Shown here: piece by piece, positions 3,024-8,169 of the stretch
How positions within the stretch are numbered: position 1 is the stretch's first letter
How the letters are laid out: every line of letters begins with the position of its first letter
DNA from: Hyphomicrobiales bacterium
GTDB taxonomy: Bacteria; Pseudomonadota; Alphaproteobacteria; Rhizobiales; Methyloligellaceae
Direction: 5' to 3'
DNA length: 64,000 nucleotides
Assembly (NCBI GenBank): GCA_003228955.1
Contig: QIGN01000178.1
Span: forward strand, 1-64,000
Notes under the pieces: model-generated
What the model saw: only the letters and a program-made list of their open reading frames with translations
The model's database searches: none
What the model was told of the DNA's origin: nothing
Program-made: the position numbers and the translations under genes

Positions 3024-3242
3024 ATGAACAGGCTGGAAAAGAATTTTTCGCTCAAGGGCGAGGCTACGCTTAGTTATGGCGACAGCGAATATCAGGTCGA
3101 AAAACCGGGGGAGTTCGTGCGCTGCGCGGTAACGGACCAGCCAATCCCGCTTGAGGAATTACGCTACTGGAGCGTGGAACTCCAGGAGCCCTATGCTTCG
3201 GCGCAAATCTCCCTGCAGCGTTATTGCGAAAAAAAGAATTAG
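3024..3242 (+). CDS. DUF2093 family small protein
   Basis: A 72-residue protein matching the small alphaproteobacterial DUF2093 family, which is typically found between xseA and lpxK as here. Recognisable family features are the YGDSEYQVEKPGEFVRCAVT segment and the IPLEELRYWSV segment. It has no signal peptide or membrane span. The function is unknown. ATG start. Its TAG stop overlaps the lpxK stop on the other strand by four bases, so the two genes converge tail to tail with no room for a terminator. Confidence 0.85.
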   Translation: MNRLEKNFSLKGEATLSYGDSEYQVEKPGEFVRCAVTDQPIPLEELRYWSVELQEPYASAQISLQRYCEKKN

Positions 3243-4246
3243 CTCGCTTTCAGCGCACGCGAGACAAGCCCCTTGATCGCGCGCTCATCCCTGAATTTCA
3301 TTTTAACCGGCAGCATGATCGCGGCCGCTTTCAACCGCTCAAGGTGGTCTTCCCCTTCAAGGCGGACCATATCTTTTTGTGTCGTGATCAGTTGCGCGCC
3401 ATGGCGTGCGGCCAGTTCCAGCAGCATATCCGCGTTCTGAGGCGTAAAGAGGTGATGATCGCCATAGGCGATGCGCTCGATAATCCTGACCCCAAGGCCT
3501 TCCAGGGTTCTGAAAAACTTGTCCGGATTTCCAATCCCGGCGAAGGCGACGACGGGCCTGGCGCGCAACCGGGCGGAAACATTCTCCGGCAGGATCTCCG
3601 CTTCCAGCAATGGCAGTGAGGCGCGTGCGGCCAGGGTCGCGATATGATCTTTTGCCGGTCCCGAGCCAACCAGAACAAGAGCGCTGGCCTTGCGGAGCTG
3701 AAAGCCGAGGCTGGCGCGCAGCGGGCCGGCGGGGATGACATGTTCGTTGCCCAGGCCCAGTTCGGCGTCGATCACGGCCAGGGACAGGGATTTGGCAAGG
3801 CTGGGGTTCTGAAAGCCGTCGTCCATGACAATAACGCTGGCGTTCCGGTCCAGCGCGGCGCGCGCGCCCTCGGCCCTGTCGGCGGCGACGATCGTCGGCG
3901 CGGCGCGGGCCAGCAGCAGAGGTTCATCGCCAACAGTTCGTGCGTTGTCCTTATCCGGGTCGACCAGATGGGGTCCTTTTGTGGTCCCGCCATAGCCGCG
4001 CGTCAGAAAAACCGGTTGCTCGCCCGCGTCGTACAAAAACCCGGCAATGGCGATGGCCGCCGGGGTCTTGCCGGCGCCGCCGGCGGTGAAATTACCAACG
4101 CAGATGACCGGAATGCCGGCCTTGAAGGGGCGGGTGAACGCCCAGCGCAGGCGGGTTGCCGCATCCCACACAAGTGCCGCCGGCATCAGCAGGGCCGGCC
4201 AGATGCTCCGCGTCCGGTACCACCATGAGGGCGCGTTAAGAGGCAC
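3239..4246 (-). CDS. lpxK: Tetraacyldisaccharide 4'-kinase
   Basis: Phosphorylates the 4' position of the lipid A disaccharide at the inner membrane, giving lipid IVA, the acceptor for Kdo. A membrane-associated N-terminus (LNAPSWWYRTRS then a hydrophobic stretch) is followed by the P-loop GNFTAGGAGKTP (residues 51-62) and the VMDDGFQNP Walker-B-like motif. I chose the GTG at 4246 because LpxK proteins start a few residues before the APSWWYR segment; it overlaps the end of the upstream gene by 11 bases, as translationally coupled genes do. The frame stays open to 4312, but that start would be unusually long. It follows the Kdo transferase fusion gene in one leftward operon. Confidence 0.95.
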   Translation of the reverse strand: MPLNAPSWWYRTRSIWPALLMPAALVWDAATRLRWAFTRPFKAGIPVICVGNFTAGGAGKTPAAIAIAGFLYDAGEQPVFLTRGYGGTTKGPHLVDPDKDNARTVGDEPLLLARAAPTIVAADRAEGARAALDRNASVIVMDDGFQNPSLAKSLSLAVIDAELGLGNEHVIPAGPLRASLGFQLRKASALVLVGSGPAKDHIATLAARASLPLLEAEILPENVSARLRARPVVAFAGIGNPDKFFRTLEGLGVRIIERIAYGDHHLFTPQNADMLLELAARHGAQLITTQKDMVRLEGEDHLERLKAAAIMLPVKMKFRDERAIKGLVSRALKAS

Positions 4247-6260
4247 GCCTGCGTTCCCTTTTCGGCGGTCTGGGTGGTAGAAATGGCGCCAGAGCCTCAA
4301 GGGTGAGTTCAAGCGCGCCGCTCATTGCCGCCACGGCCTGCCTGCCGCGTGAGACAAGCGTTTTGCGTGTGCTTTCATCCTGGAGGAGTATCAGCGCCCG
4401 GGCTGCAAGCTCTTCCGCGTTTTGCACTTCGACACAGGCATTGGCGTCCAGCAGGGCGTTATAGGCTTCCTTGAAGTTATGGATATTGGGGCCGGAGATT
4501 ACCGCCGCATCATGCATGATGGCTTCAACCGGGTTCTGGCCACCATGGGGGACCAGCGAGCCACCGATAAAAACCACCGGTGCGAGGGCGTAAAACAGGC
4601 CGAGCTCGCCGATTGTGTCGGCAAGATAGATGTCGTGGGCATTCGACGGCGCACTGATATCCGTGCGCCGGGCGCAACTCAGCCCATGGGTCTTGAGCAG
4701 ATCGCGGATGGCTTCTCCCCGGTCAGGGTGGCGCGGCGCGATTATGGTCAGCAAACCGGGAATGTCCCGCTTAAGGGCCAGGTGGGCCTTTGCCACGATT
4801 TCTTCCTCGCCCCGATGCGTGCTGGCGGCAAGAAAGACCGGACGCGGTGCAATGGCTTTTCTGAGTTCGGCCAGCACCTGCATATCAACGGGCAGGGCCG
4901 GCGCATCCATTTTCAGGTTTCCCGCGGCGATCACATTACGCGAGCCCAACCTCTCGAAATGGCCCGCATACCGGTTGCTTTGCGCAAGCACAAGATCGAA
5001 ACTGGAGAACAGAGGCCGGGCAATTCCGGCGCGTTTGCGCCAGCGCCTGTAGGAGCGCGGAGAAATGCGGCCATTGACCTGCACAAGCGGAATACCGCGC
5101 CTGCGTGCTTCGCGGATCATATTCGGCCAGATTTCCGATTCGGTTAAAAGCGCGATGCCGGGGCGCCAGTGGTCATAGAAGCGCTTCATGAAGTCAGGTG
5201 TGTCCAGCGCGACATATTGATGAATGGCCTGGTCGGGCAGCCGGGCGCGGGCCAGCCGGGCCGACGTCACCGTTCCGGTCGTCAGCAAAACATGCAGATC
5301 AGGGCGTTCCTGCATCAGTCTTTCGATAAGGTGGAGAATGGCATTTGTCTCGCCGACACTTGCAGCATGGAACCAGACAAGCGGCCCTTCGGGGCGGGGA
5401 ATGCTGGGGATGCCCAGCCGCTCACCGGTGCGTCCGGCCTCTTCCTTGGAGTGGCGTTGCCGGTATTTCAGAAGCAACGGCGCCACGGGTTGCAGGAGCC
5501 TTGTGGCCAGGGTGTATCCGCGCAGCATGGCGCCATATTCTCGCGCTGTTTCCCCGGCAGGTCCGCCGCGCTCGGTGGTTCCGGACAATTTGTAGGCCCG
5601 CGCCGTCACTTCGTTCAGGCTCTCCTCCAAAGCCTTCCGCGCGGCTTCGAGTTCTGAAGCGGTTGCGTGGCGTGGAACGCGAATTTGCTCGCCTCCGGCA
5701 ATGACCATGCTGGAAAAGGGCAGATTTACGGTGAAGCCGCTCCAGTTGTTGAGTTTGAAGTAGCGGCTGGAAACAACCGCGCAGGGCATGATCGCCCGTC
5801 CCGAATACTTTGCCAGCGTCACAAGGCCGAGCCCGGCTTTTCGGGCTGGTCCAGGAGGAATATCCGCCGTCAGGGCAACTGTCGTATCGTTTCTGAGGGC
5901 TTGCATACAGGCTCGCAGGGCAGCATATCCGCCCTTGTTCTTGCCTGATCTTCCCGAACCCGAGCCACGGATGGTCGTCATGCCAAAGCGCGCGACAGTG
6001 GCGTCCACAATGTCCCCGTCAATATGCCTGGCCACCATAATGGCAACATTGATGTCGTCACGGGTGCGCAGGAATGGAAGCAGAAGCCCCTGCCCATGCC
6101 ACATGGCTATGATGAGCGGGTGATCGGGCATGTTGTTCTGAATAACTCCGGGAGGGTCTTCCTTCAGGGAGCTGGTCCGTCTGATGAGCCGGACAAAGCT
6201 GGCCAGAAGCCCGCCCGCGGCGCCGATAACCGTTTTTGACTTCAACACACGTTGCAACAT
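4236..6260 (-). CDS. waaA: Fusion of DUF374 acyltransferase-like domain with Kdo transferase
   Basis: One uninterrupted frame encodes two normally separate enzymes. Residues about 4-226 are a DUF374/LPLAT-type domain (MWHGQG with the catalytic-type His near 55, then ADIPPGPARKAGLG in place of the usual DGPRGP). Residues about 241-669 are a complete CMP-Kdo:lipid A 3-deoxy-manno-octulosonate transferase, with GERLG (catalytic-type Glu near 280), FHAASVGE, LLTESEIWPNM and the C-terminal HGGQNPVEA motif. The chosen ATG at 6260 matches where DUF374 proteins normally start and lies 23 bases after the ABC transporter stop; the frame is open further up to 6368. The second domain adds Kdo to lipid IVA. 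The role of the first, perhaps lipid acyl transfer in the same pathway, is inferred. Confidence 0.92.
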   Translation of the reverse strand: MLQRVLKSKTVIGAAGGLLASFVRLIRRTSSLKEDPPGVIQNNMPDHPLIIAMWHGQGLLLPFLRTRDDINVAIMVARHIDGDIVDATVARFGMTTIRGSGSGRSGKNKGGYAALRACMQALRNDTTVALTADIPPGPARKAGLGLVTLAKYSGRAIMPCAVVSSRYFKLNNWSGFTVNLPFSSMVIAGGEQIRVPRHATASELEAARKALEESLNEVTARAYKLSGTTERGGPAGETAREYGAMLRGYTLATRLLQPVAPLLLKYRQRHSKEEAGRTGERLGIPSIPRPEGPLVWFHAASVGETNAILHLIERLMQERPDLHVLLTTGTVTSARLARARLPDQAIHQYVALDTPDFMKRFYDHWRPGIALLTESEIWPNMIREARRRGIPLVQVNGRISPRSYRRWRKRAGIARPLFSSFDLVLAQSNRYAGHFERLGSRNVIAAGNLKMDAPALPVDMQVLAELRKAIAPRPVFLAASTHRGEEEIVAKAHLALKRDIPGLLTIIAPRHPDRGEAIRDLLKTHGLSCARRTDISAPSNAHDIYLADTIGELGLFYALAPVVFIGGSLVPHGGQNPVEAIMHDAAVISGPNIHNFKEAYNALLDANACVEVQNAEELAARALILLQDESTRKTLVSRGRQAVAAMSGALELTLEALAPFLPPRPPKRERRRAS

Positions 6261-6282
6261 ATACAGTGCCGCCGGAGCTTGG

Positions 6283-8169
6283 TCATTCAGCCGGGACAGG
6301 GCGGTCCGCACCTGTTTTCCGTGAGGGTCTGGAGGCGTCTTTGCGCCCTGGCTTACGCCCGTTGCCATCTGGCATGAGCCCGAGCTGCGCGCTGTTCAGA
6401 CGGGCGTAAAGCCCGCCGGCGGCCATCAGATCCTCGTGGCGTCCCTGTTCCACGATCCGTCCGCCGTCCAGAACACAAATCACATCCGCCTCCTTCACGG
6501 TCGACATCCGGTGCGCAATCATCAGCACGGTGCGCCCGCGCATGAGTTTTTCAAGTGCCTGCTGTACCTTCGCCTCCGCCTCTCCATCGAGCGAACTTGT
6601 GGGCTCGTCGAGCAGCAGGATCGGCGCGTTTCTGAAGATGGCGCGGGCGATGGCAATGCGCTGCTTCTCGCCGCCTGACAGGATATTTCCGGCCTCGCCG
6701 GCACGCGTGTCATACCCCTCGGGAAGCCGTGATATGAAATTGTGCGCGGCGGCCGCCTTGGCGGCGGCAATGACGTCCTTATCGCTGCCCTTCGAGCCGT
6801 AGGTGATATTGGCTCGGATGCTTTCATCGAACAGCACCGGGTCCTGGGTCACCAGGGCAAGAGATTCGCGCAGGCTGGCAATGGTCGCCTTGGAAATATC
6901 CTGTCCATCGATGAGGACGCGGCCCTCCTGCGGGTCGAAGAAACGTAGCGCGAGATTGATTATTGTACTTTTGCCGGCGCCCGAAGGGCCCACCAGCGCA
7001 ATCGTTTTTCCAGCCGGAACGTTAAGTGAAATATTGCGCAGCACGGGGTTCTTGTCGTCATAGGAAAAAGACACATTCTCGAAAACGATTTCGCCATTGC
7101 CGGGTTTCAATGGCTTGGCGCCCGGGGCGTCCACCAGCTTGCGTTCATGGTCGATAATGCCAAATACCCGGCTGGCGGCGGCCACGCCCTCCTGCACGGC
7201 GGTCTGCAATGTCGCCACGCTTTTCAACGGCTGATAGATGAGCATTGCCGAGGTCATGAAGCCCATGAAATGACCAAGTGATACAGCGCCCGTGATGCCC
7301 TTCACGCCGGCATAGTAGATCAGCAGGGCGAAGCCGATGCCAACCATGATTTCAACAATAGGACCCGATGCGGCGCGCGCCCGGGCGCCGCGCATGGTAA
7401 ATTCCAGGGTCCGGTTGATGGCTGTCGTTGCACGCGCGATCTCATGATCCTCCTGCCGGTAGGCGCGAACGATCGGGCTGCCGGCGATGGTCTGCGAAAT
7501 GAGCGCGCTCAAATCCCCGGTTTCCTGAAGTGATTTCGTGGTCGACTTGTTCATTTTGCGCCGCTGCCGGCCGAGCAGAAAAATAGCGATCGGCATGAAC
7601 ACCAGAACAACCCCGGAGAAGCGTAAATCCATGTAGAGCATGACGCCGACGAGGACGATGACCTTGAGCAGGTTCTGCCCCAGCGCCACGATCGCGCGGC
7701 TCGCTGTCGCACGGATGAGATTGACGTCATAAAGAAAACCGGAAATCAGACGTCCCGAATGCACCGAATTGATCCAGCTGAGATCCGCATGGGTTATCTT
7801 GGCGAACATGGAGATGCGCAGATCGGCAATGAACCGGTGACCCAGATACCCCACCGTGACAGTGGAGATGTATTCCGTGATCGCCTTGGTGACGGTGACA
7901 ACGACGATGAAGGTCATGATCGGGTAGATCATGTCGGTCTTTTTGGCGATGAATACGTCATCGGCTGTCATCTGGATCAGGAAGGGAATGGCGCCGGTGG
8001 TTACGGCCGAGAAGGCGAGCGCAATGCCGGCAAGAGCCAGCAGGCCGAGCCGGGGCCGAAGGTGCTCGTGCCATATGCGCTCGACAACTTCGCGCGTTGT
8101 ATAGTCGGCCTGAAGCTCGTCGGCCTTGCGCGTGATCGAACTGGTGTCGGTAAACAGAGTGTCTTTCAC
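6283..8169 (-). CDS. ABC exporter, fused permease and ATPase, MsbA-like
   Basis: A 628-residue half-transporter with six membrane segments in the first 325 residues or so and a complete nucleotide-binding domain: Walker A GPSGAGKS (394-401), signature LSGGEKQR (497-504), Walker B ILLLDEP (517-523) and an H-loop AHRMS. It probably works as a homodimer. Being first in a lipid A/Kdo operon, flipping lipid A precursors across the inner membrane (MsbA role) is the likely job, although this subfamily also includes other lipid and drug exporters. GTG start with a GGAAAG ribosome site. The C-terminus has a basic tail rich in Lys, Arg and Ser. Confidence 0.9.
   Translation of the reverse strand: MKDTLFTDTSSITRKADELQADYTTREVVERIWHEHLRPRLGLLALAGIALAFSAVTTGAIPFLIQMTADDVFIAKKTDMIYPIMTFIVVVTVTKAITEYISTVTVGYLGHRFIADLRISMFAKITHADLSWINSVHSGRLISGFLYDVNLIRATASRAIVALGQNLLKVIVLVGVMLYMDLRFSGVVLVFMPIAIFLLGRQRRKMNKSTTKSLQETGDLSALISQTIAGSPIVRAYRQEDHEIARATTAINRTLEFTMRGARARAASGPIVEIMVGIGFALLIYYAGVKGITGAVSLGHFMGFMTSAMLIYQPLKSVATLQTAVQEGVAAASRVFGIIDHERKLVDAPGAKPLKPGNGEIVFENVSFSYDDKNPVLRNISLNVPAGKTIALVGPSGAGKSTIINLALRFFDPQEGRVLIDGQDISKATIASLRESLALVTQDPVLFDESIRANITYGSKGSDKDVIAAAKAAAAHNFISRLPEGYDTRAGEAGNILSGGEKQRIAIARAIFRNAPILLLDEPTSSLDGEAEAKVQQALEKLMRGRTVLMIAHRMSTVKEADVICVLDGGRIVEQGRHEDLMAAGGLYARLNSAQLGLMPDGNGRKPGRKDASRPSRKTGADRPVPAE

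Follow-up and report, generated by a model that had tools for sequence, protein, structure and literature searches.

In the window analyzed here, a 64,000-nucleotide stretch of contig QIGN01000178.1 from a Hyphomicrobiales bacterium (assembly GCA_003228955.1), a single minus-strand gene encodes a DUF374 acyltransferase-like domain followed by the Kdo transferase WaaA (KdtA). Is this a genuine two-domain protein, and does its first domain act in the manner of the DUF374 family? DUF374 corresponds to LpxJ, a replacement for LpxM that, where LpxM is absent, attaches the secondary acyl chain at the 3' position of lipid A (PMC6148475, PMC6286764). These papers describe LpxJ as able to work ahead of Kdo transfer and as having no HX4D/E motif of the usual kind. 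The claim made here is a modest one, as each enzyme is already known and many environmental bacteria have the fusion as their standard form. In the fusion, two lipid A steps are physically joined, and the LpxJ active site has undergone a natural experiment, in which an essential residue was replaced once, on the fusion lineage. Literature searches outside subscription papers returned no description of a DUF374-WaaA fusion.

One gene for two lipid A domains

The features of the locus to which the analysis refers are the following.

4236..6260, minus strand: fused gene, an LpxJ-like (DUF374) acyltransferase domain plus WaaA/KdtA, 674 aa and a stop codon
5574..6239, minus strand: DUF374/LPLAT-fold domain, residues 8-229, from Pfam, the profile envelope, and the structure model
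6096..6098, minus strand: His55, equivalent to LpxJ H61, the proposed catalytic base, present in 57/57 fused proteins
5934-5957: loop of about six extra residues, residues 102-109, modeled with low confidence
5832..5867, minus strand: ADIPPGPARKAG, residues 132-143, in place of PDGPRGP, with Asp133 kept (LpxJ D132)
5739..5741, minus strand: Ser174, aligned with LpxJ D173, where Asp is essential in R. typhi
5532..5582, minus strand: linker, residues 227-243, from the alignment of 57 fused proteins
4281..5531, minus strand: WaaA (Kdo transferase), residues 244-660, catalytic residues intact, from Pfam, NCBIfam, alignment, and fold match
3239..4312, minus strand: lpxK (tetraacyldisaccharide 4'-kinase), directly downstream, with an overlap between its listed ORF and the end of waaA
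6283..8169, minus strand: msbA-like lipid A exporter, directly upstream

The open reading frame is uninterrupted from 4236 to 6368, and its ATG at 6260, which yields the 674-aa product, lies 22 bases beyond the point where the msbA-like ORF upstream of it ends. Pfam detected both families in this one protein, DUF374 (PF04028) with 66.6 bits (cut-off, 26.8) and Glycos_transf_N with 205.8 bits (cut-off, 23.9). An earlier note, made from the sequence alone, had proposed that a DUF374 domain and a complete WaaA share a single frame, and the ORF, the Pfam matches, and the recurrence of the arrangement in relatives confirm it. No stop codon and no shift of frame interrupts residues 226-241; the frame recurs in the nearest named relative, bacterium BMS3Bbin10, which is 85% identical and has the same two domains. 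An LpxK-like ORF was found downstream in 54/56 named fused loci and an msbA-like ORF upstream in only 18/55, both by simple motif patterns that may undercount. The source genome (G000) contains one DUF374 copy, one WaaA copy, and one member of the LpxL/LpxM family (PF03279), for which the best NCBIfam matches are "lauroyl acyltransferase" models, below cut-off; LpxL and LpxM are not separable with certainty. With one DUF374 and one PF03279 copy, no candidate other than the fused domain is obvious for the remaining secondary acylation.

The second domain matches the WaaA of Aquifex with an E value of 5.1e-20. The equivalents of WaaA residues E31, E98, K162, R212, N273, and E276, to which catalytic or CMP-binding roles are ascribed in PMC6286764, are E304, E374, K450, R510, N576, and E579, all invariant in 57/57 fused proteins. 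The GT-B fold and these six residues are shared with WaaA/KdtA of Aquifex aeolicus (2xci) and the C-terminal domain of the Acinetobacter baumannii enzyme (4bfc), from which the window protein differs in bearing an N-terminal acyltransferase domain. The NCBIfam WaaA models scored below cut-off (best, 472 bits versus 617), which is an annotation threshold and not a biochemical feature.

For the first domain, a search of PDB sequences with the DUF374 profile gave only a weak match (PlsC 5kym; E = 0.056), and fold comparison was therefore used. Structure prediction returned a pLDDT of 89.6 and pTM of 0.81 for the whole protein and 91.5 and 0.88 for the N-terminal domain alone. The model of the latter matched the glycerol-phosphate acyltransferase entry GPAT 1iuq (Z = 13.2), PatA 5f2z (12.5), PlsC 5kym (12.3), and LpxM 5knk (11.0), within a search range of Z 10.8-13.2 for these enzymes compared with approximately 6-7 for unrelated rows, and Foldseek E values reached down to 8.9e-06. 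Both domains are thus seen as predicted models with the folds of their families. The related fold and the expected role in late acylation unite the domain with LpxM/LpxL; in contrast to these, it belongs to another Pfam family and carries WHGQGLL, with no HX4D/E motif.

Active-site residues and the branch of the fusion

Mutation of W60, H61, D86, D132, W172, or D173 abolishes the activity of R. typhi LpxJ, the D173A protein being inactive, and H84 is dispensable, as reported in PMC6148475. These residues were mapped by motif and spacing; the spacing 26/46/40 occurs in 23/32 TPDG-type rows and equals the R. typhi numbering exactly, which supports the mapping. In an alignment (A3) of 57 sequences (56 named fused loci, out of 61 eligible, and the window protein), Trp54, His55, Asp81, and Trp173 are invariant; they correspond to W60, H61, D86, and W172. 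The D132 equivalent (Asp133) is Asp in 56 proteins and Glu in one. The proposed LpxJ catalytic pair H61/D132 is therefore present, with His55 in 57/57 and Asp133 in 56/57. Five of the six essential residues are kept and the sixth is replaced, the D173 equivalent being Ser in 56 proteins and Asn in one; because an experimentally essential residue is absent, we do not claim membership in LpxJ.

The replacement was followed in a larger residue table of 116 rows, composed of 67 fused-clade rows (contig-edge and frame-broken ones included), 5 stand-alone paralogs, and 44 stand-alone relatives. The frame-broken L092 and most of L003-L030, which largely duplicate named genomes, were left out. Ser or Asn occupies the D173 position in 72/72 fused-clade rows, stand-alone paralogs included, and Asp occupies it in 44/44 stand-alone relatives outside the fused clade. 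The spacing between the D86 and D132 equivalents is mostly 52 in the fused clade versus 46, reflecting an extra loop of about six residues that is common to the fused clade and to stand-alone relatives of the non-DGPRGP type and absent from most canonical LpxJ-type proteins. Set against LpxJ of R. typhi and Epsilonproteobacteria, then, the window protein is of the same Pfam family and has five of its residues, yet it is fused to WaaA, has Ser for D173 and ADIPPGPAR for PDGPRGP, and contains these additional residues.

The earlier note had also drawn attention to the altered DGPRGP motif and suggested a changed activity of the first domain. The alteration (ADIPPGPARKAG at 5832-5867) is real and clade-wide. 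A changed activity is plausible, mainly by way of the replacement of Asp173 by Ser; the motif itself still contains the catalytic Asp that corresponds to D132, and unfused Parvibaculum combines a similar motif with Asp173, so that the argument leans more on the D173 position. The motif is TPDGPRGPR-like in the class sample, TADVPK-like in unfused members of the order, TAD[L/F]PPGP in Parvibaculum, and TAD[V/I]PPGPAR in the fused clade; its Asp is kept in nearly all, with Glu in L023/L173 and L024. We considered the motif change as a mark of the fusion and rejected it, since the unfused Parvibaculum form keeps Asp173 (6 rows). The motif thus changed before the fusion. A one-step loss of an R/K135-D173 salt bridge was not supported as stated, given that Parvibaculum combines P135 with D173 (6/116 rows). 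Ser or Asn at the D173 position is found only with P (71 rows) or T (1 row) at 135, and R/K with Ser in 0/116 rows.

To place these changes, we masked the motif and the Asp173 position and computed a careful tree of the N-terminal domain from 64 chosen rows. All 43 fused-clade rows group together (support, 99/97). On this tree Asp173 changes once and the fusion state twice, the second time in stand-alone Hyphomicrobium copies located inside the fused clade. A quick N-domain tree of 117 rows gave the fused clade a support of 91. The same clade was recovered at 99 in a tree of 105 WaaA rows, with the single-domain WaaA proteins of three genomes of the source family (G010, G011, and G012) nested inside, for which loss of the first domain is the simplest reading. 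Two of these genomes are without any DUF374 (G011, L070; G012, L072), and G010 (L177/L178) has a distant, unlinked DGPRGP-type DUF374 protein on another contig. The first domain is therefore dispensable in some relatives. The trees thus point to a single fusion event, and the change of Asp173 maps, as reconstructed, to the same branch as the fusion.

Stand-alone copies of the fused-clade acyltransferase were observed in Hyphomicrobium-like genomes (L138:2980-3717, L120, L134, L141, and L142). They carry TADVPPSRPRH or similar and Ser at the D173 position, and at least four of the genomes also have the fused gene elsewhere. The L138 copy faces a putative cyclopropane fatty acid synthase gene.

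Proposed function and competing readings

Membership in DUF374, the family of LpxJ, makes a bifunctional LpxJ-like/WaaA enzyme the likely product, and we consider it somewhat probable that an LpxJ-type late acyltransferase and a Kdo transferase are combined here in one inner-membrane-associated protein. LpxK, encoded next door, would make lipid IVA. The N-terminal domain would use acyl-ACP as donor and lipid IVA or Kdo-lipid IVA as acceptor, in which His55, with Asp133, would activate the hydroxyl on the 3' primary acyl chain. The C-terminal WaaA would add Kdo from CMP-Kdo. The fusion would set a 1:1 ratio and keep both sites near new lipid IVA from LpxK; the fixed ratio and membrane proximity are plausible gains. 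We infer both activities, the acceptor position, and the benefit of proximity from these comparisons. According to PMC6286764, members of the LpxJ family accept Kdo-free lipid IVA and between three and six acyl chains are tolerated by WaaA, so acylation first and Kdo first are both possible. The direct coupling of Kdo addition to a lipid modification step that the earlier note had put forward is likewise something we infer; late acylation of the LpxJ type is the most likely lipid step. On present sequence evidence, the fusion probably works like LpxJ plus WaaA. Three findings speak against this reading: the clade has no Asp at the position where D173A inactivates R. typhi LpxJ, the first domain is dispensable in some relatives, and the NCBIfam WaaA models score below cut-off.

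The replacements of Asp173 by Ser and of Arg135 by Pro remodel the site, and acyl or acceptor specificity may consequently differ from that of characterized LpxJ. Tentatively, the LpxJ site may have been re-engineered such that, once the domain is in cis with WaaA, Asp is dispensable or a new catalytic or substrate-binding arrangement is used, and the lipid A of the clade would then be different. Because Asp was replaced once on the fusion lineage, both the role of Asp173 and LpxJ-type action before or after Kdo addition could be addressed directly by comparing fused and separate enzymes.

A less probable but still credible reading is that the N-terminal domain does transfer acyl chains but in a job other than that of LpxJ, using another donor (e.g., very-long-chain or hydroxy-acyl ACP), another lipid A position, or a post-Kdo acceptor. 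The clade-wide Ser/Asn on a background of R/K135 changed to P, in a domain otherwise conserved, and the single origin of the clade would fit such a role, as would the stand-alone copy that at least four Hyphomicrobium-like genomes keep in addition to the fused gene, which is expected if the domain has its own function. Against it, the domain agrees with LpxJ in its proposed catalytic His and Asp and in the other essential residues.

It is rather unlikely that the domain is instead a noncatalytic module that binds lipid IVA or anchors WaaA in the membrane. The missing Asp, essential in R. typhi LpxJ, and the loss of the domain, with WaaA retained, from three source-family genomes could be explained in this way; however, four residues of the site are invariant and Asp133 is nearly so, and a dead domain should drift at its active site. 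In the 57 fused proteins the mean majority-residue frequency is 0.65 for the N-terminal domain and 0.66 for WaaA, with lower values at the ends and 0.54 for the linker, which is almost gap-free despite being more weakly conserved than both domains. Since the N-terminal domain is conserved equally with WaaA, it is probably an active acyltransferase with a remodeled site and not a relic, to judge from the alignments and models. A PlsC-like phospholipid acyltransferase joined to WaaA by chance gene order is highly improbable: the domain shares its fold and a weak sequence similarity with PlsC (5kym), but it is a DUF374 member with WHGQGLL in place of HX4D/E and lies between lipid A genes.

Distribution of the fusion among relatives

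A genome was scored as fused if its DUF374 and WaaA matches fell on the same contig with equal open-frame length. By this measure 26/41 relatives have the fusion: 8/8 in the genus, 19/25 in the family (genus included), and 7/16 among other members of the order. The remaining relatives have separate adjacent genes (G034, G036, G037, and G039), broken frames (G018 and G019), DUF374 on a different contig (G010), WaaA only (G011, G012, and G027), partial WaaA only (G023), or neither DUF374 nor WaaA (G028, G029, G031, and G038). Among 199 genomes drawn evenly from the order, counted by eye from two match tables, DUF374 was present in 147, WaaA in 161, and the fusion in 41, from 15 families. Whether the fusion is the common form across the order, a point raised in the earlier note, thus has a divided answer. 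It is widespread, being fixed in the genus and throughout a large sub-clade and not peculiar to the source genome, but it is a minority form within the order (41/147 DUF374 genomes). An assembly or sequencing artefact joining two genes has virtually no probability: the frame breaks in G018 and G019 are all that would suggest it, whereas the same frame in 41/199 genomes of 15 families, in isolates such as Methyloligella and Hyphomicrobium facile, and in the 85%-identical relative refutes it.

Most of the named relatives (80 of 158 loci kept) belong to Hyphomicrobiales. The fusion is present in Hyphomicrobium, Filomicrobium, Methyloceanibacter, and Methyloligella, and Parvibaculum, Stappia, Amorphus, and one Rhodobiaceae genome are unfused. 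The earlier note's statement of adjacent separate genes in related Alphaproteobacteria is borne out, e.g., by Parvibaculum and Stappia. The separate DUF374 and waaA genes of these and other Alphaproteobacteria have the same order and homologous domains as the fused gene, but they yield two polypeptides, and Asp173 is kept. In a draw of 289 genomes of the class, DUF374 was detected in 178, most frames being 220-400 aa among the matches listed. Beyond the order, DUF374 frames of >600 aa among the matches listed (G154 and G068) contained no fusion: DUF374 and waaA are in different frames in G154, and the long DUF374 frame of G068 is without WaaA. Rare fusions may occur elsewhere in the class.

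Several minor observations accompany these counts. A WaaA match is absent in 38/199 genomes of the order, and the near-complete G028, G029, G031, and G038 have no WaaA, DUF374, or LpxL/LpxM-family match; these four possibly have no lipid A, or an unusual one. In Methyloceanibacter methanicus R-67174 (L116) the two domains are in different frames; the breaks in L116 and L007 (M. methanicus / G019) lie near the linker, and that in L092 (G018) lies inside the first domain. L048 (G204) carries a tandem pair of DUF374 genes, both canonical.
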